A stretch of DNA of 64,000 nucleotides from Draconibacterium sp. GTDB taxonomy: Bacteria; Bacteroidota; Bacteroidia; Bacteroidales; Prolixibacteraceae. Below, piece after piece: positions 14,505-62,315 of the stretch. The first letter of the stretch is position 1; every line of letters begins with the position of its first letter. Made by a program: the position numbers and the translations under genes. The stretch covers positions 92,246 through 156,245 of the forward strand of contig WOYV01000108.1 in assembly GCA_011620585.1 (NCBI GenBank), written 5' to 3'. Below the pieces are notes generated by a model that saw nothing but the letters and a program-made list of their open reading frames with translations, did not search any database and had not been told where the DNA came from.

Positions 14505-14582
14505 AAAGCCCCCCAACCTCCACGGGAGGAGGAGCTTTAATATAAATTTCCTTAAGTCATTTATTTTTGACTTGGGGCTTAA

Positions 14583-14615
14583 AAACCATCTGTTGCAAGG
14601 CAGATGGTTTTTTTG
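14583..14615 (+). terminator. Terminator of hppA
   Basis: AAACCATCTG and CAGATGGTTT form a perfect 10-bp stem followed by a T tract. A longer-range pair (AAGCCCC just after the hppA stop with GGGGCTT at 14574-14580) can form an upstream structure. Confidence 0.85.
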
Positions 14616-52214: not shown

Positions 52215-54080
52215 ATGAAAAATAAACAGATAAGTATTATGAAAAAACTATCAATAACAATGGTCGTTGCGCTTTTACTGACCATGTCATATTCTTGTTC
52301 TGAAGACTTTTTGACCAAGGAACCTCCGGGGTCGACTTCAGAAAATGTATTCTACGATGCAAAGGGTATTGACGCACTTTTAATTGGAACCTACGCAATG
52401 GTAGGAGGGAGCTCGCTTTGGGAAATCAGTTGGGGGGCATCCATTCAAAACTGGACTTATGGTTCGGCTGCCTCAGACGATGCCTATAAAGGGTCTGAGT
52501 TTACTGACCAGGAACCTGTAAATGATATCGAGCACTGGACAGTGCAATCCATAAATTCATATCCCAGTGAAAAATGGGAATGGGCCTTTGGTATGGGGGT
52601 CGACCGCGCCAATAAAACCATTCGGGTTATTAATAAAAGTGAAGAAGATGGAACAATCACTTCTGCAGAGGCTGACCAATTCAGGGCTCAGGCTCGGTTC
52701 TTAAGGGCATTATTCTATTTTGAAGCTCGTTTGGTATTTGGGGATTATATTCCAATTCTGACTGAAGATACAGAAGATCCAAGGCTGGTTTCGAACGTAA
52801 ATGCTGATGGCGCTGTTCTAAATTTTATAATTGATGATTTGGCCTATGCAGCAAGTAAACTTCCTGCAACACAAGCCCAGCTTGGCCGTGCTACAAAATG
52901 GGCTGCCAAGGCATTAGCTGCAAGGGCATATCTTCAGGATTTGAAGTATACTGAAGCAGAAGCATTGTTAGATGAAATTATTGGCAGTGGACAATTTTCG
53001 CTTGTTGATGAATTTATCGATAACTTCAATATAGCTACTAACAATAACAGCGAATCTATTTTTGAGATCCAGGCCAACGTAAACGATATCAATGAATCAT
53101 TAAATGCTGAAATGGGGATCGGATTGAACTGGCCGCATGGTTCAGATATTGGTATGTGCTGTGGTTTCCACCAACCTTCTCAAAACCTGTTCAATGCCTA
53201 TAAAGTTGACGCAAACGGTTTCCCAATGTTTGATACTTTTAACAATACAGACTTGACTAATGATCAGGGAGTTCCATCGGAAGATGCGTTTACTCCGACT
53301 GATCATTTGTTAGACCCTCGTGTTGATTATACACTTAGCCGCCGTGGTATCCCATACAAAGACTGGGGTATCAATCGTGGTAGAGACTGGATCCGCAGGC
53401 AGCCAGAGGGCGGACCTTATATGCCTGCTTCAAAACCATTCTTTAAAAAGTCGGAGCGCTATAGCTTTTCAACCACTACCGGATGGCAGACTGGTATCAA
53501 TGCCAATAACTATCGTTACCTGCGTTACAGCCATGTTATTCTATGGAAAGCAGAATGTCGCGCGGCTGCGAATGATCCTGGCGGCGCTTTGACCTTTGTG
53601 AATATGATCCGTGAAAGGGCTAAAAACAGTACTCCGGTTATGGGTAAGGTTTTAATTGATAAACTTCCTCCATCCGTATATCCATGGGGTGTAGGTTCAA
53701 CTGATGGTGATTATCTGTCGGGTGGTTCTGTTGACTGGACTCAACCAGCGGCTAATTATAAAATCGAGCCTTATACATCATTTGCAGATGGAAATCAAGC
53801 TATGCAAGCAGTGCAATGGGAACAACGCCTGGAATTTGCTACCGAAGGTATGCGTTTCTTCGATTTACGTCGGTGGGATAATTTACCTAATAAAATTGGT
53901 GGTAAGAGCATGGTTCAAGTTCTGAATGATTTTGCTCGGGCTGATGAGAGAATTCGGAATAATAACAAGGCTAGTATGACTGGTTTTTCTTTTGATAATA
54001 GCGATAAGTACATGCCAATTCCGCAGGGGCAGTTAGACCAACAGGTTGGTGTTCTGGAGCAACGTCCTGAATTTAAATAA
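52215..54080 (+). CDS. susD: SusD/RagB-type surface lipoprotein
   Basis: A 621-residue (613 from the second ATG at 52239) surface lipoprotein that caps the SusC barrel and binds the ligand. Lipobox YSCSEDF, the SusD opening FLTKEPPGSTSENVFYDAKG, TPR-like helices with FRAQARFLRALFYFEARLVF, and the C-terminal EQRLEFATEGMRFFDLRRWD are diagnostic. It is in the susC operon and is followed by a strong terminator. The next gene is a close paralogue. Confidence 0.95.
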   Translation: MKNKQISIMKKLSITMVVALLLTMSYSCSEDFLTKEPPGSTSENVFYDAKGIDALLIGTYAMVGGSSLWEISWGASIQNWTYGSAASDDAYKGSEFTDQEPVNDIEHWTVQSINSYPSEKWEWAFGMGVDRANKTIRVINKSEEDGTITSAEADQFRAQARFLRALFYFEARLVFGDYIPILTEDTEDPRLVSNVNADGAVLNFIIDDLAYAASKLPATQAQLGRATKWAAKALAARAYLQDLKYTEAEALLDEIIGSGQFSLVDEFIDNFNIATNNNSESIFEIQANVNDINESLNAEMGIGLNWPHGSDIGMCCGFHQPSQNLFNAYKVDANGFPMFDTFNNTDLTNDQGVPSEDAFTPTDHLLDPRVDYTLSRRGIPYKDWGINRGRDWIRRQPEGGPYMPASKPFFKKSERYSFSTTTGWQTGINANNYRYLRYSHVILWKAECRAAANDPGGALTFVNMIRERAKNSTPVMGKVLIDKLPPSVYPWGVGSTDGDYLSGGSVDWTQPAANYKIEPYTSFADGNQAMQAVQWEQRLEFATEGMRFFDLRRWDNLPNKIGGKSMVQVLNDFARADERIRNNNKASMTGFSFDNSDKYMPIPQGQLDQQVGVLEQRPEFK

Positions 54081-54140: not shown

Positions 54141-54163
54141 GTTGATTGACAGCTATTAACACA

Positions 54164-55990
54164 ATGAATCCAAATCTAAGATTACTCGCCTTATTTCTCG
54201 TCTTTTTTAGTGCAATTTCCTGTTCTGATGATTTCTTGACCAAATCTCCACCAGGCTTGAATTCAGATAACTATTTTATGGATGAAAAAGGAATCGATGC
54301 ATTATTAATTGGAACATATGCCATGGTTCGGGGGAGTTCGCTTTATGATGTTAATTGGGGGGCATCCATTCAAAATTGGTCATTTGGTTCAGGGGCTTCC
54401 GATGATGCTTATACTGCTCCCGAAGCAACGGAAACATCAGGGGTTCTTAACGTCGAACGTTGGAGATTAACTGAGTATAATAGTTTTGTTGCCGATAAAT
54501 GGAAGTGGGCATTTGGGCTTGGGATTCAAAGGGCAAATAATGTATTAAAGATAATTGATAATACAAGCGAAGTATCGGAAAAAAAGGCCAATGAGTTTAA
54601 AGCTGAGGCTTTATTCCTACGTTCCTTGTTTTATTTTGAGGCGTGGTTGGTCTTTGGTGATTATATTCCTTTGATTGATGAGAATGAAGAGTACCCGGCA
54701 AAAGTGTCGAACCTGAATGATGACGGGGAGGTACTTACTTTTATTGTGGAAGGGTTGCAATTTGCCTGGGAATATTTACCTGAAACACAAATCGATGTTG
54801 GTCGCCCGACAAAGTATGCTGCCATGGCACTTGCTGCCCGGGCTTATCTTCAGAAGCTGGAATACTCAAAAGCAAAACCTTTACTCGATGAAATTATCAG
54901 TAGTGGGAAATATTCATTGATGCCTGATTTCTTTGATAATTTCAGAATTGAAAAAAACAATAATACAGAATCGATCTTTGAGATTCAGGCAAATGTAAAC
55001 GATATTGCAGAATCGTTAAACGCCGAAATGGGTATTGGGTTAAACTGGCCGCATGGAGGCGATATTGGAATGTGTTGTGGTTTTCATCAGGTGTCGCAAA
55101 ATATGGCGAATGCGTTTAAAGTAGATGAGAATGGCTTGCCACTGTTTGAAACCTTTAACGATGTAGACCTTAAAAACGACATGAGAATTCGTTCGGAAGA
55201 AACTTTTGTTCCGGCTAATGACTGGCTCGACCCACGAATTGACTGGACACTCAGCCGACGAGGAATTCCTTTTTTAGACTGGGGGATCAACAGGGGAAAC
55301 GACTGGGTTCGCTCTCAGCGGGACGGAGGGCCCTATCTTCCGGCAATAAAACCTTTCTTTTACAAATACCAGCGTTATACTCTTTCAACCACTACCGGAT
55401 GGATGACAGGTGTAAATGCCAACAACTATAGATATATCCGTTATGCCCATATTCTTTTATGGCGGGCAGAAATTGCAGCATTTGAAAGAGATTTGGAGCT
55501 TGCCAGGAGCCTTGTGAATGAGATACGGGAAAGAGCTGGCCATGAGTTTGTCATGGGAAAGGTTCTGGTTTATGAACTTCCAAAATCAATTTATCCATGG
55601 GGAGGTGGGACAAGTGATTCAGATTATCTAAACGGGGGTGATGTTGACTGGACTCAACCGGCGGCCAATTATAAAATTGGTTTGTATTCCTCATTCGCTA
55701 GCACCGATGAAGCAATGCGTGCAGTTCAGTGGGAGCAGCGTTTGGAATTTGCTACTGAAGGGCGGCGTTTTTTTGACCTTCGGAGGTGGGACAATCTTCC
55801 TAATAGAATTGATGGAAAAAGTATGGCGCAGGTATTGAATGATTTTGCAAAAGCTGATTTGCGAACCAGGCTCAACAGCATGAGTACTGCCGAATTTGCT
55901 GAAAAAGACAAATATGCCCCAGTCCCGAAAATACAACTCGATCTTCAAAAAGAAGTTCTTGTGCAACGGCCTGAATACATAGTAAAATGA
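54164..55990 (+). CDS. Second SusD/RagB-type lipoprotein, paralogue of the preceding gene
   Basis: A 608-residue surface lipoprotein (lipobox ISCSDDF) very similar along its length to the previous SusD: both share KGIDALLIGTYAMV, the segment ESLNAEMGIGLNWPHG, GDIGMCCGFHQ, and WEQRLEFATEG. It has no SusC of its own. I chose ATG 54164 because the frame upstream starts only with a TTG. It lies behind a terminator with its own -7 box, so it may be expressed separately and could offer an alternative lid for the same SusC. A tandem duplication is the simplest origin. Confidence 0.92.
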   Translation: MNPNLRLLALFLVFFSAISCSDDFLTKSPPGLNSDNYFMDEKGIDALLIGTYAMVRGSSLYDVNWGASIQNWSFGSGASDDAYTAPEATETSGVLNVERWRLTEYNSFVADKWKWAFGLGIQRANNVLKIIDNTSEVSEKKANEFKAEALFLRSLFYFEAWLVFGDYIPLIDENEEYPAKVSNLNDDGEVLTFIVEGLQFAWEYLPETQIDVGRPTKYAAMALAARAYLQKLEYSKAKPLLDEIISSGKYSLMPDFFDNFRIEKNNNTESIFEIQANVNDIAESLNAEMGIGLNWPHGGDIGMCCGFHQVSQNMANAFKVDENGLPLFETFNDVDLKNDMRIRSEETFVPANDWLDPRIDWTLSRRGIPFLDWGINRGNDWVRSQRDGGPYLPAIKPFFYKYQRYTLSTTTGWMTGVNANNYRYIRYAHILLWRAEIAAFERDLELARSLVNEIRERAGHEFVMGKVLVYELPKSIYPWGGGTSDSDYLNGGDVDWTQPAANYKIGLYSSFASTDEAMRAVQWEQRLEFATEGRRFFDLRRWDNLPNRIDGKSMAQVLNDFAKADLRTRLNSMSTAEFAEKDKYAPVPKIQLDLQKEVLVQRPEYIVK

Positions 55991-58290: not shown

Positions 58291-59109
58291 TTAGAACTGA
58301 ATGATGGTTTGTCGTATAGCCACTAGTCTTGTCAGTAGATTCTCCAACAAATCCAGTTTAAGCATGTTGGCCCCGTCTGATTTGGCGGCTTCCGGATTCG
58401 GGTGAGTTTCAATAAAGATTCCATCCACACCAACTGCGATACCTGCTCGTGCAATAGTTTCGATCAGCGCAGGGTTACCACCGGTAACTCCGCTCACCTG
58501 ATTCGGCTGTTGCAGCGAGTGGGTGATGTCGAGAACAACCGGGACATTCATAGCTCGCATTTCCGGGATACCGCGGTAATCCACAACCAAATCCTGATAG
58601 CCAAAGGTGGTCCCACGCTCAGTAAGAACAATGTTATTGTTCCCGCTATCGATTACTTTTTGCACTGCAAATTGCATGGCTGTAGCTGAAAGGAACTGGC
58701 CTTTTTTAATGTTCACCACCTTTCCTGTTTCAGCAGCGGCGACCAAAATATCTGTCTGGCGACACAGGAATGCAGGAATCTGAAGAACATCTACAAATTC
58801 GGCTGCCATAGTTGCTTCCGGGGCGCTGTGAATATCGGTCACAACCGGAATATCGAAAGTTTCGGAAACTTTTTTCAATATTTTCAGAGCCTTCTCATCA
58901 CCGATTCCCGAAAAAGAATCGATGCGCGAACGATTGGCTTTTCGGTACGATCCTTTAAAAATATAAGGAATCTGTAATTTATCAGTGATGGAAACAATGC
59001 GTTCAGCAATTTCGAGCGCCATTTGTTCGCTCTCGATCGCACATGGTCCGGCCATCAGGAAGAAATTGCCCGAGCCGGTGTTTTTTATTTTCGATATTTC
59101 CGGAATCAT
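58291..59109 (-). CDS. kdsA: 3-deoxy-8-phosphooctulonate synthase
   Basis: Condenses PEP and arabinose 5-phosphate to KDO 8-phosphate for lipid A-core synthesis in the cytosol. The 272 residues have FFLMAGPCAIESEQMA, FKGSYRKANRSRIDSFSG, VVTDIHSAPEA, IPAFLCRQTD, NIKKGQFLS and LTERGTTFGYQDLVVDYRG. I chose ATG 59107-59109 (MIPEISKI); the frame stays open to a TTG at 59292 but that part belongs to the upstream RNA-like region. kdsA heads a group with the DinB and Dabb genes. A terminator hairpin lies 77 bases upstream. Confidence 0.95.
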   Translation of the reverse strand: MIPEISKIKNTGSGNFFLMAGPCAIESEQMALEIAERIVSITDKLQIPYIFKGSYRKANRSRIDSFSGIGDEKALKILKKVSETFDIPVVTDIHSAPEATMAAEFVDVLQIPAFLCRQTDILVAAAETGKVVNIKKGQFLSATAMQFAVQKVIDSGNNNIVLTERGTTFGYQDLVVDYRGIPEMRAMNVPVVLDITHSLQQPNQVSGVTGGNPALIETIARAGIAVGVDGIFIETHPNPEAAKSDGANMLKLDLLENLLTRLVAIRQTIIQF

Positions 59110-59172
59110 CAAATCTGTTTTAACGGATGTAAAAGTAGTAAGAATGTTTGGTTTGGGATAAAGTTGCAATGG

Positions 59173-59217
59173 TATAAAAACACAAATGGGAACTATTCTT
59201 TGACAAATAGTTCCCAT
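59173..59217 (-). terminator. Terminator upstream of kdsA, end of the candidate RNA
   Basis: ATGGGAACTATT (59186-59197) and AATAGTTCCCAT (59206-59217) are a perfect 12-bp stem with an 8-base loop; on the minus strand it is followed by TTTGTGTTTTTAT. Confidence 0.8.
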
Positions 59218-59700
59218 CCACTTTAAAACAACCGAAGTCGTTTTTCGTGCCAGGTTACGGTTATTGCGACCGGCCATTCTCAGTTTTTTCAAACTTTACT
59301 GACCCCTTACTTCCCGGTTTAACGTGTTACGGTTAAACTTTCGAGCAGTTCATTCGGTTTACGCGTCTACCTTCCTGAACGAAGTGTCTCTCATCGATCC
59401 GAGCAAGTTTCTTGCGAACCTTGTCTTTTCTTTACCAGCTTTTCGGTTTCCCGAATTTGCCGTGCAGTTTTGCTTCCCGGGCCGAAGCCTTTTCCACATC
59501 CTGCGGGAGACTCAATCTTGAAAGAACTTCTGGATTTTCTTTCAGATGATTGCCTGAACTGCGACCTTCCAGATTGTCTTGTTCAAACTTCGGCTTTCCA
59601 TTGTGCCGTCCCGAAGGCCGGAAAGAACCGGTTCCTGTTTCAACTAAGTAACATTTCCCGTTTCCACAATTTCAAGCGGTCATTTATCGCTCACCTGATA
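59173..59700 (-). ncRNA. Candidate structured RNA of about 520 nt (unidentified)
   Basis: No credible protein is encoded on either strand; all short frames start with TTG or lack a family. The minus strand shows many hairpins with stable loops: AAAACGAC/GTTGTTTT closed by UUCG (59225-59244), GTTTAAC/GTTAAAC (59317-59338), CAAGGTTC/GAAACTTG with a GCAA loop (59404-59423), TTCGG/CCGAA with GAAA (59442-59455), GGC/GCC with UUCG inside TCCCG/CGGGA (59475-59508), TTCAG/CTGAA (59541-59558) inside a longer helix (59509-59578), and a UUCG hairpin at 59606-59621. CAGGT/ACCTG (59251-59255 with 59693-59697) can close the whole. Promoter and terminator fit its ends. It lacks the conserved GGAAAGUCC of RNase P RNA and any tmRNA tag or tRNA end. 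It could also be a long kdsA leader. Confidence 0.65.
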
Positions 59701-59703
59701 GTT

Positions 59704-59733
59704 CAAATGTAAAGCGAAAAATTAAAATTACAA
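59704..59733 (-). promoter_or_regulatory. Promoter of the candidate structured RNA
   Basis: On the minus strand TTG (59731-59733), 19 bases, then TACATTTG (59704-59711): an exact match to the Bacteroidetes promoter, placing the start near 59700. Confidence 0.75.
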
Positions 59734-59881
59734 GTGATTTTCAATGGTTTATATTCACCATAAATCAACCGGAGATATTAACAATTGTTGATAATGTAAA
59801 TTAATTGTTAAACGTTGTTTGTTTTGGTTAAAATATATTGCACGATTCAATGAAACTGAAAAACAGTAGCTTGGGTATCTT

Positions 59882-61039
59882 TTAGGACAGTCTGCTCTTA
59901 AAATCCTGGTAAGTGAATTCGCGGACAATTTTTAATGTTTCATCTTCGGTCCAAATGGCAATGGCCGGATGATTGACCCCGTTAAACATGGTCGTTTTTA
60001 CCATTGTATAATGGATCATGTCGAGTAATATAAGTTTTTCGCCTACCTGCAATTCATGATCAAATGAGTAGCTTTCCATAAAATCACCGGCGAGACAACT
60101 CACACCTCCCAAACGAAACAGGTGTCTGCTATCGGGAGTTGGTTCGCTGGCGCCAATGATTTTTGGGCGATAAGGCATTTCGAGTGTGTCGGGCATGTGG
60201 GCCGTGAAGGAAACATCGAGAATAGCTGTTTTTATACCCTTGTGTAACACAATATCCTGAATAGTGGAAACCAAAACACCGGTTTCCCAGGCAATTGCGC
60301 TACCCGGTTCAAGGATCACGTTAACCTTGTATTTTTCGCGGAAGGCTTTTAATATTTTGATGAGGTGCTCGTGATCATAGCCTTTTCTGGTCATCAAATG
60401 GCCGCCACCCATATTCACCCACTTTATTTGAGAAAGATATTTCCCAAAGTTGGCCTCAAATTTTTCCAGCACTTTTTCAAGGCTGTATGAATCCGATTCA
60501 CATAAAACGTGAAAATGGATGCCCTCGATCCCTTCCGGTAATTCATCAGGCATATTTTCGATACCCACTCCCAGCCTCGATCCGGCAGCACTGGGATTGT
60601 ACAAATCGGTTTCCACATCCGAAAACTCAGGGTTCACCCTGATCCCGCATGAAACAGGATGTTCGGTTTTGAGCGTTTCTGGATAAAATTTTTCGAACTG
60701 GGTAAACGAATTGAAAACAATGTGGCTGCTGTAACTCATCAATTCCTCAAATTCATGTTCGAAATATACCGGAGAATAGGTGTGGGCACGTGTATGCATT
60801 TCTTCGAAACAAAGCCTGGCTTCATAGAGCGAACTGGCTGTTGCACCTTTTAGATACTCGCGAACCAGCGGAAAAGCGCTCCACATTGCAAATCCTTTAA
60901 ACGCCAGAATTATTTCGATGCCTGCATCCTTTTGGACACGGTCGATTAATTGCAGGTTCTGCCGTAGCAGTTTTTCGTCTAAAACAAAAGCGGGTGAAGG
61001 AATTTCAGAGTAGTTCAATGTTTCGAGTTTAAAGTTCAA
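59882..61039 (-). CDS. nspC: Carboxynorspermidine/carboxyspermidine decarboxylase
   Basis: PLP fold-III decarboxylase that converts carboxy(nor)spermidine to (nor)spermidine. About 385 residues; PLP Lys near residue 48 (ILAFKGFAMWS), the family segments HFHVLCESDSYSLEKVL, VNMGGGHLMTRKGYDHEHL, LEPGSAIAWETG and GVSCLAGDFMESYSF. No in-frame ATG exists near the expected start; the choices are TTG at 61037-61039 or TTG at 61016-61018 (giving MNYSEIPSPAFVLDE after initiation), and the second fits family length better. It is downstream of the dehydrogenase gene, with an 82-base gap holding a hairpin. Confidence 0.9.
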   Translation of the reverse strand: MNFKLETLNYSEIPSPAFVLDEKLLRQNLQLIDRVQKDAGIEIILAFKGFAMWSAFPLVREYLKGATASSLYEARLCFEEMHTRAHTYSPVYFEHEFEELMSYSSHIVFNSFTQFEKFYPETLKTEHPVSCGIRVNPEFSDVETDLYNPSAAGSRLGVGIENMPDELPEGIEGIHFHVLCESDSYSLEKVLEKFEANFGKYLSQIKWVNMGGGHLMTRKGYDHEHLIKILKAFREKYKVNVILEPGSAIAWETGVLVSTIQDIVLHKGIKTAILDVSFTAHMPDTLEMPYRPKIIGASEPTPDSRHLFRLGGVSCLAGDFMESYSFDHELQVGEKLILLDMIHYTMVKTTMFNGVNHPAIAIWTEDETLKIVREFTYQDFKSRLS

Positions 61040-61049
61040 AGTAATGAAA

Positions 61050-61109
61050 GCTGTCTCAAAAACTGTTTGCGAATTTTGCGAGAAATTCCATTCGAGCTTT
61101 TAAGACAGC
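61050..61109 (-). other. Stem-loop between CASDH and nspC
   Basis: On the minus strand GCTGTCT (61103-61109) pairs with AGACAGC (61050-61056) around a 46-base loop rich in smaller repeats. No T run follows, so it is more likely a processing or translation-control structure than a terminator. Confidence 0.4.
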
Positions 61110-61121
61110 CTCTTAAATCAT

Positions 61122-62315
61122 TTATATCTCCAGGTCGCCGTTGATTTCTTCCTTCCAGGGAAGTCCGAATTCACCGATTCGTTCCATAAACGGATCCGGA
61201 TCGAACTCTTCGACGTTGAACACGCCTTTTCCCTTCCATTTCCGGGTAAGCACCATCATCGCACCCAACATGGCCGGAACACCTGTGGTGTATGAAACGC
61301 CTTGCGTACCAGTTTCTTTGTAAGCCTGTTGGTGTAAACAGTTATTCCAGACGTAATACGTTTTTTCTTTTCCGTCTTTTACTCCTCGAATACGACAACC
61401 GATCGAAGTTTCTCCGGTGTAGTTTTCTCCCAGATCTCCCGGGTTAGGCAGCACTTCTTTCAAAAATTCAAGTGGAATAATATCGATTCCCTTGTACTTA
61501 ACCGCATCGATACGCGCCATGCCAATATTCTGGATCACACGTAAATGGGTGAGGTATTCGTCGCCAAATGTCATCCAGAAACGGGCGCGTTTTAAAGTCG
61601 GATAATTTTTTACCAGTGATTCAAGTTCCTCATGGTAGATTACATATGAGTTTTTTGGCCCGATATTCGGATAATTCAAAGCTTTTTTGATTTCGTGTGG
61701 CTCGGTTTCTACCCACTTTCCATTTTCCCAATAACGGCCTTTTTGAGTGATTTCGCGAATATTGATTTCAGGATTGAAGTTGGTAGCAAACGCCTTGCCG
61801 TGGTCTCCTGCATTACAATCGACGATGTCGAGATAATGCATTTCGTCGAAATGATGTTTGGCTGCATATGCTGTGTATATACTAGTAACGCCGGGATCGA
61901 ACCCGCAACCCAGAACCGCCATGATGCCCTTTTCTTTAAAACGGTCGTGGTAGGCCCACTGCCAGCTGTATTCGAATTTGGCTACATCGCGTGGTTCGTA
62001 GTTGGCTGTGTCGAGGTAATTAACTCCGGTTTCCAAACAGGCATCCATAATATTCAGGTCCTGGTATGGCAGGGCAACGTTGATGACCAGTTCGGGTTTA
62101 AATTGATTGATTAGTGCAACCGTCTCTGGCACGTTGTCGGCGTCGAGTTTTGCAGTTTGTATCCTGCCTTTCCCAACTTCTTTGGCAATTACATCGCATT
62201 TGGATTGGGTACGGCTGGCCAGCATTATTTCAGAAAAAACATCCGGATTGCCGGCACATTTGCTGGCAACCACACGACCAACACCTCCGGCTCCGATAAT
62301 AAGTACTTTACTCAT
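61122..62315 (-). CDS. Carboxynorspermidine/carboxyspermidine dehydrogenase (saccharopine dehydrogenase family)
   Basis: NAD(P)H enzyme that reductively joins aspartate semialdehyde with putrescine or diaminopropane to give carboxyspermidine or carboxynorspermidine. The 397 residues start with the Rossmann loop VLIIGAGGVGRVVASKCAGN; further segments are VINVALPYQDLNIMDACLET, AVLGCGFDPGVTSIYTAYAA and the C-terminal GVSYTTGVPAMLGAMMVLTR. The assignment over other saccharopine dehydrogenases rests on the nspC neighbour. Promoter candidate at 62340-62347. Confidence 0.92.
   Translation of the reverse strand: MSKVLIIGAGGVGRVVASKCAGNPDVFSEIMLASRTQSKCDVIAKEVGKGRIQTAKLDADNVPETVALINQFKPELVINVALPYQDLNIMDACLETGVNYLDTANYEPRDVAKFEYSWQWAYHDRFKEKGIMAVLGCGFDPGVTSIYTAYAAKHHFDEMHYLDIVDCNAGDHGKAFATNFNPEINIREITQKGRYWENGKWVETEPHEIKKALNYPNIGPKNSYVIYHEELESLVKNYPTLKRARFWMTFGDEYLTHLRVIQNIGMARIDAVKYKGIDIIPLEFLKEVLPNPGDLGENYTGETSIGCRIRGVKDGKEKTYYVWNNCLHQQAYKETGTQGVSYTTGVPAMLGAMMVLTRKWKGKGVFNVEEFDPDPFMERIGEFGLPWKEEINGDLEI

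Follow-up and report, generated by a model that had tools for sequence, protein, structure and literature searches.

Layout of the locus

We characterized a putative noncoding RNA gene in a 64-kb stretch of Draconibacterium DNA, the whole of which is referred to below as the window. The gene is predicted to occupy about 525 nt of the minus strand (59174..59700), its ends being placed by a promoter, an end-closing helix (P1) and an intrinsic terminator. The promoter, TTG-N19-TACATTTG, is an exact match on the minus strand (59704..59733) and is of what we take to be the Bacteroidota -33/-7 type. The 5′ core, AUCAGGUGAGCGAUAAA (59683..59699, minus strand), contains CAGGU, the 5′ strand of P1, and the 3′ core, AAUAACCGUAACCUGGCAC (59247..59265, minus strand), contains ACCUG, its 3′ strand; both are near-invariant in the 148 copies that could be parsed, out of 177 described below. 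A UUCG-capped hairpin in the 5′ domain (59607..59620, minus strand) is among the strongest covarying helices, and a further UUCG hairpin, recovered in an alignment of copies and in the consensus structure, fills the interval between P1 and the terminator (59218..59246, minus strand). The terminator itself (59174..59217, minus strand) is a 12-bp stem followed by TTTGTGTTTTTAT; its arms, ATGGGAACTATT and AATAGTTCCCAT, pair perfectly at 59217-59186, with the T-rich tail after them. Perfect 12-bp hairpins with a loop of 3-10 number two in the 64-kb window, the terminator hairpin being one. The second lies at 14581-14612, with arm AAAAACCATCTG and a loop of 8. A preliminary description of this DNA, made from its letters alone, had reported both an exact promoter and a perfect terminator hairpin, and both were confirmed, the promoter at 59733-59704. 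The same description gave 59173-59733 as the span of the RNA; the two elements do bracket that segment, but it includes the promoter, and the RNA itself runs from about 59700 to 59174.

The next gene downstream, outside the RNA, is kdsA (58291..59109, minus strand), whose start at 59109 lies 76 bases beyond the terminator stem. Its name is taken from the preliminary description, and Pfam supports a DAHP_synth_1 domain (6.6e-67). Upstream of the RNA, at 59882-62315, are two genes that by eye resemble a carboxynorspermidine decarboxylase gene (nspC) and a saccharopine-dehydrogenase-type gene, a pair that suggests a polyamine pathway. Elsewhere in the window, two adjacent genes (52215-54080 and 54146-55990) have translations that by eye resemble SusD-type outer-membrane lipoproteins, and they look tandemly duplicated because these translations are so similar.

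The segment was said in the preliminary description to hold no credible ORF, and the comparison of relatives agrees. When the 30 copies from the same genus were aligned, 53 distinct gap intervals lay inside the alignment, of which 5 were divisible by three, and in pairwise comparison with the window's row the figure was 6 of 310 gaps, with shared gaps counted repeatedly. Minus-strand frames of 46-79 aa would be the source of a product if the RNA were the messenger for a small protein, but only 5 of the 30 same-genus copies retain the start codon of the 46-aa frame, stops appear in relatives, and neither of the two frames tested (46 and 79 aa) had a Pfam match. Depending on the same-genus copy, the longest ATG frame measures anything from 0 to 99 aa. 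A protein gene was rejected on these indels, frames and Pfam results, and we regard a messenger role as highly improbable.

Occurrence and genomic surroundings

A blastn search with the segment matched 34 of 61 relatives, all within the window's genus (37 genomes, the window's own included), and a more divergent copy used as query matched, at E ≤ 0.01, 110 of the 140 family members; outside the genus, numerous matches span the 3′ end alone. Model R1, a covariance model of the 3′ end (108 positions, 57 sequences), is mostly a sequence profile, since its RNAalifold structure kept the terminator stem alone. At E ≤ 1e-5, R1 matched 115 of the 140 family genomes, including 89 of the 103 of good completeness. 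Of 393 genomes sampled from the order, it matched 88 at E ≤ 1e-4, from 48 of 206 genera, and gave no match in 305, stricter filters dropping some weak matches. By our own count the 88 matching genomes carry 34 family labels, and the RNA spans many families of one order. From the order search 29 new loci were kept (L272-L300), 28 of which have a 5′ module upstream, in some cases a weak one (E up to 0.017). A phylum sample of 395 genomes gave 30 with an R1 match at E ≤ 0.01, mostly weak or confined to the terminator. Three of these genomes (G638, G721 and G603, which belong to one genus of another order and have 5′ modules at E 0.02-0.07) are probably true carriers.

A scan of named genomes for the 3′ pattern yielded at least 117 stretches. 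Among the pattern matches listed, 115 fit the 3′ profile, a partly circular agreement given that the pattern lies within the profile, and 100 also have an independent 5′ module. Two of the listed matches fall off the 3′ profile: one in a Rhodobacter MAG, which is evidently a chance match, and one in 'Bacteroidales bacterium 6E', which ends at the edge of the locus. Carriers among the matches listed include Draconibacterium orientale, D. sediminis, D. mangrovi and D. aestuarii, as well as Maribellus, Tangfeifania, Sunxiuqinia, Mangrovibacterium marinum and a Lentimicrobium MAG. Two MAGs labelled Bacteroides sp. (labels as deposited) are also among the matches listed, as is Perlabentimonas gracilis, in which the 3′ module alone was matched, right by the edge of the locus. 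In the NCBI taxonomy Draconibacterium is placed in the Prolixibacteraceae, Marinilabiliales, and Perlabentimonas in the Tenuifilaceae, Bacteroidales. Within the family, none of the four genomes of genus g32 (G097-G100) matched R1, and three of them are 99% complete; this absence could be a natural loss, usable for finding a protein that was lost together with the RNA. With some good genomes of the family and most of the order sample lacking it, the RNA is not universally essential.

The 34 matching same-genus genomes have one copy each, except for two copies in G020, and some other genera have two to four. Copies compared within one genome are 62-98% identical. Tandem copies about 0.5-2.3 kb apart were observed at loci L075, L076, L085, L087, L097, L109 and L298, and where tandem full-length pairs were compared, identity was 62-95%. 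Copies with both modules number 177 distinct sequences of 322-659 nt, a range limited by the search rule, under which the 5′ module lies 150-700 nt ahead of the 3′ module. Some other families have an inner domain that falls about 200 nt short of the one in the window's family. A short form of about 335-347 nt was observed in other families (L283, L287, L291, L295, L297, L299 and L300); it has the same ends and a much smaller inner domain.

The signals that flank the RNA recur with the copies. In 138 of 176 copies TAnnTTTG ends 0-8 nt ahead of the RNA, compared with 0-3 per window in eight control windows; TTG-N17-21-TAnnTTT is found upstream in 150 of 176, compared with 0-4 in seven control windows. 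Because the promoter is fixed directly upstream, the transcript is expected to begin at helix P1 or a short distance ahead of it. The GGGR/YCCC lower stem of the terminator is present in all 177 copies, for which the searches partly selected.

The neighbouring genes vary. A downstream neighbour is present at 133 of 147 distinct copies from all families, and these neighbours form 49 protein clusters; they lie on the same strand as the RNA in 81 copies and on the opposite strand in 52, and when each cluster is assigned by majority, 18 are same-strand and 31 opposite. Upstream neighbours are on the same strand in 118 of 138 copies and 26 of 44 clusters. The largest neighbour cluster accounts for at most 30 of the 147 copies. 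Frequent neighbours, identified by Pfam on one representative per cluster, are alpha-L-fucosidase, enolase, UbiD, PfkB kinase and citrate synthase, and enolase upstream together with UbiD downstream occurs at 17 copies. An eno-RNA-UbiD-like arrangement is common to several MAGs, often with a gene farther upstream that by eye is ribosomal-protein-like.

These surroundings bear on two alternatives. The preliminary description had allowed that the segment might be a very long attenuator or leader of kdsA, and in the window kdsA does follow on the same strand, at the distance of 76 bases noted above. Among the 30 same-genus copies kdsA lies within 1.5 kb downstream of 16, but in the other 14 it is not in that stretch, and elsewhere UbiD, PfkB kinase and other genes take its place and are convergent with the RNA in 52 of 133 copies and 31 of 49 clusters. 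The variable neighbours and the often convergent downstream gene indicate that the RNA is not a kdsA leader, and the fixed, related genes on the same strand that mark a cis-regulatory leader or riboswitch were not found downstream of the copies. The attenuator was accordingly rejected on neighbours and orientation, and this part of the preliminary description, to which we assign a minimal probability, did not stand. The second alternative is that the RNA belongs to a mobile or phage-borne element and serves that element, as its variable genome position, the one to four copies per genome and the tandem copies might lead one to expect. Against this, the window's copy had no blastn match in phage and plasmid records, viral contigs had no exact match to the 3′ pattern, and the five common neighbour clusters are, judged from their representatives, ordinary metabolic enzymes. 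Phage or plasmid carriage was rejected for want of a match in these collections, and we consider service to a mobile element quite improbable.

Fold, conserved core and covariation

That the folded molecule would be read from the minus and not the plus strand had been proposed from hairpins seen by eye, and the fold energies bear this out: the minus strand gave a z score of -3.20 relative to shuffled sequences, with none of 100 shuffles as good, vs. -1.35 for the plus strand, with 10 of 100 as good. The single-sequence structure is nevertheless a poor guide for this RNA, since it barely beats random columns. In the window's own minimum-energy fold, 56 of 169 pairs (33%) are kept at ≥80%, compared with 23% of random pairable columns, and mean pairing is 63% vs. 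56%.

The comparison of copies outlines an architecture in which a core made by the paired ends encloses a variable domain, itself composed of helices and hairpins, and is followed by a UUCG-type hairpin and the terminator; several UUCG-type hairpins appear in the consensus structure. P1 pairs CARRU at the 5′ end with RYYUG close to the 3′ end. Among the 148 parsed copies, 115 have G-C, 30 A-U and 3 G-U as the third pair, and 107 have G-C, 29 A-U and 12 G-U as the fourth; these counts come from the 148 of 177 copies that fit the motif pattern, which restricts some letters and leaves the matching of partners free. The 5-bp pairing of the two ends noticed earlier is therefore both present and covarying. 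Inside P1, near-invariant letters GAGNGAUAAAA on the 5′ side face AAUAACNGUA on the 3′ side, an invariance at the 5′ and 3′ ends that stems partly from the way in which the copies were found. GAG facing NGUA beside P1 could form a loop-E (bulged-G) motif. The core position before GUA is A in 71, C in 67 and T in 10 of the 148 copies. This position, at about 59257-59259, was observed to covary with a base just past the terminator stem, at about 59181-59183, in both alignments (columns 458/532 among 128 copies and 457/531 among 83 copies); this pair is isolated and shows about 80% standard pairing.

The best-conserved stretches are mostly the end-closing core and the terminator, and the inner domain holds two short ones only. 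This distribution bears on the possibility that the RNA is a large trans-acting regulator that pairs with mRNAs through exposed loops, its fold serving as scaffold and protection. The one to four copies per genome, some tandem and diverged to 62-98% identity, and a variable inner domain that would suit target-specific copies are in keeping with such a regulator, but the concentration of conservation outside the inner domain is not, and we hold it to be an unlikely though serious alternative. The same core could be the active site of a ribozyme, for which one might cite a near-invariant, non-helical center closed by the ends, a variable periphery and a length of 322-659 nt; neither a reaction nor a substrate is known, however, and Rfam gave no match, and a catalytic role appears improbable.

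Covariation was assessed against a null that is our own imitation of R-scape, in which substitutions were shuffled along a FastTree tree on sequence-only alignments, with a G-test statistic corrected by APC and computed with and without column rates. From the 147 distinct copies, 6 outside 420-665 nt were removed, leaving 141, and the removal of near-identical sequences left 128. A set of 83 copies was restricted to lengths of 490-575 and under 86% identity, and a set of 95 comprised those of the 128 with <70% identity to the same-genus rows, and it holds no identifiable same-genus copy. In the out-of-sample test, the structure was predicted from the 30 same-genus copies and tested on these 95 divergent ones. 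Standard pairs filled 76% of the pair cells, vs. 32-45% when the partner was slid by 1-3 columns, and 79 of 139 pairs were at least 80% standard, vs. 14-31 in the slid controls. Significant covariation (E<0.05) was found at 27 of the 139 pairs, vs. 0-3 in six slid controls, and under the rate-aware null at 24, vs. 0-2. Double changes in at least two copies occurred at 109 of 139 pairs, vs. 72-86 of 137-139 slid pairs, a measure that separates the two less well. A covariation test on homologues had been proposed in the preliminary description, and its outcome is covariation above the phylogenetic null in an independent sample.

Tests on the larger alignments gave further results. Among the 83 copies, 36 of the 60 top covarying column pairs (about 146,000 in total) fall in the RNAalifold structure, which was derived from the same alignment. 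The all-pairs test on this set gave 8 significant pairs at E<0.05 (4 rate-aware), and the two-set test found 40 of 117 structure pairs significant (35 rate-aware); among the 128 copies, 7 pairs were significant in the all-pairs test (3 rate-aware). Three alignment pairs of the UUCG-capped hairpin at 59607..59620 (84-97, 85-96 and 87-94) are among the 10 highest-ranking of about 146,000 column pairs. A simple scan, run without a null, returned two weak candidates for palindromic covarying loop positions, such as would be used by a homo-oligomer held together through kissing loops, as in nanocages of the GOLLD/ROOL type. Judged from these substitution patterns, the fold is under selection.

A candidate RNA class and its comparison with known RNAs

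The preliminary description had proposed an Rfam search, and no family matched the RNA. With Rfam 15 nothing in the window rose over cut-off, and at E ≤ 10 the region 58900-59950 gave two sub-threshold matches only: ctRNA_pND324 at the terminator (25.9 bits vs. a cut-off of 45) and the UPD-PKc pseudoknot outside the RNA (17.1 vs. a cut-off of 40). None of 4227 Rfam families matched at E ≤ 1 over 14 loci, and 18 named loci gave one tRNA over cut-off and nothing else; OLE, GOLLD and ROOL are presumably among the 4227 families of the release used. ARAGORN detected no tRNA or tmRNA in the window. The 6S model RF00013 had no match in the genome, the window or the loci, and was detected in 5 of 14 control genomes. 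The 6S-Flavo model RF01685 likewise had no match in window or loci, and its genome search is uninformative, since it matched no control either. The TROVE domain (PF05731) had no match in the genome, with one of 14 controls positive (Deinobacterium chartae); since a TROVE protein is lacking, there is no Ro60/Y RNA system of known kind here, and this candidate was rejected for the Draconibacterium genome.

A divergent form of a housekeeping or large RNA (RNase P, tmRNA, 6S, OLE, GOLLD or ROOL) would have a fitting size and a multi-branched fold, and the want of an RF00013 match in the genome would leave room for a 6S RNA. Yet RNase P RNA (RF00010, 221.8 bits) is encoded on contig C130 and tmRNA (RF00023, 159.8 bits) on contig C85, neither model matching the window, which upholds the earlier view that the segment is neither of them, and the 14 loci were blank at E ≤ 1. 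A known RNA family was rejected on the Rfam searches at cut-off and permissive thresholds, and we judge a divergent member of one to be very unlikely.

Taken together, the conserved promoter and terminator, the out-of-sample covariation, the noncoding character and the lack of an Rfam match favor the first option of the preliminary description, a large structured RNA that stands alone. The segment is very probably the gene of such an RNA, of an apparently uncatalogued family that occurs in many members of the order Bacteroidales and in related bacteria. Its own promoter, at a fixed position, would start the transcript at P1 and its own terminator would end it, and expression may be constitutive. 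The pairing of the ends in P1 would bring together the near-invariant internal loop GAGNGAUAAAA/AAUAACNGUA, with the variable domain and its helices and hairpins lying between the 5′ and 3′ core strands, and the invariant core might then be a protein-binding site or an active site. The RNA may act in trans within a ribonucleoprotein (RNP), as its RNA component, a reading to which we give nearly even weight and in which the variable domain would be peripheral, by analogy with RNase P RNA or OLE RNA. Among the roles considered, we favor an RNP RNA, then a base-pairing regulator, then a ribozyme. The neighbours of the 147 copies, with their numerous clusters, singled out no protein partner. More tentatively, the RNA may represent an undescribed, order-wide RNP RNA or ribozyme of the Bacteroidales and Marinilabiliales, with a paired-end core and a clade-specific domain, of a rank like that of OLE. 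Cultured strains, for instance Draconibacterium orientale FH5T and Mangrovibacterium marinum DSM 28823, carry the RNA, so that its expression, structure and deletion are directly testable.

OLE, GOLLD and ROOL are the usual examples of large RNAs without a known job. Classes of comparable size that lack an assigned function were called rare in a 50-genome screen, whose main text (supplements aside) contains none of the Bacteroidota terms looked for (PMC11109978). Five Bacteroidota or large-RNA terms looked for are likewise absent, supplements aside, from a 26-genome screen (PMC8632094), and the human-microbiome screen reports 3161 candidates of 27-219 bp (PMC8040213). A full-text search of one literature library returned no paper on noncoding RNA in Draconibacterium or Marinilabiliales, nor on a riboswitch in Prolixibacteraceae; for intergenic RNA-seq in Draconibacterium it gave a single paper, on a salt-marsh community. 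Broader searches turned up the known large RNAs, transcriptome studies of B. thetaiotaomicron and RNA discovery screens. The RNA differs from Bacteroidales-1, Bacteroid-trp, Bacteroides-1, Flavo-1 and 6S-flavo in that none of these was matched in the Rfam scans. The 6S-flavo motif is in Rfam release 15, and we assume the same of the others. In the 2010 survey they were presented as Bacteroidota candidate structured RNAs with Rfam numbers (Weinberg 2010, PMC2864571).

Among individual large RNAs, GOLLD and ROOL are described as large ornate RNAs of unknown function, and GOLLD as a phage- and prophage-encoded RNA, frequently located close to tRNA islands (PMC12286853). The RNA described here is likewise large and ornate, but unlike either it has no Rfam match, and unlike GOLLD it had no match in the phage, plasmid and viral collections searched and lies in a window that has no tRNA. 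OLE (ornate, large, extremophilic) RNA is about 600 nt long and belongs to the Bacillota. It is reported as a large, highly structured noncoding RNA with conserved stretches, found mostly in extremophiles and/or anaerobes (PMC9723947, PMC12054373, PMC11332333). The present RNA shares with OLE its size, its high degree of structure, its noncoding nature and its conserved stretches, and differs in occurring in another phylum, in having no Rfam match and in lacking a single protein neighbour. Both RNase P RNA and tmRNA are large, consist of many helices and combine a conserved core with a variable periphery. The RNA resembles them in each of these respects, although both are separate genes elsewhere in the Draconibacterium genome. 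What would be new is the RNA class, which fits no known family tested, whereas large structured noncoding RNAs are already known as a category.
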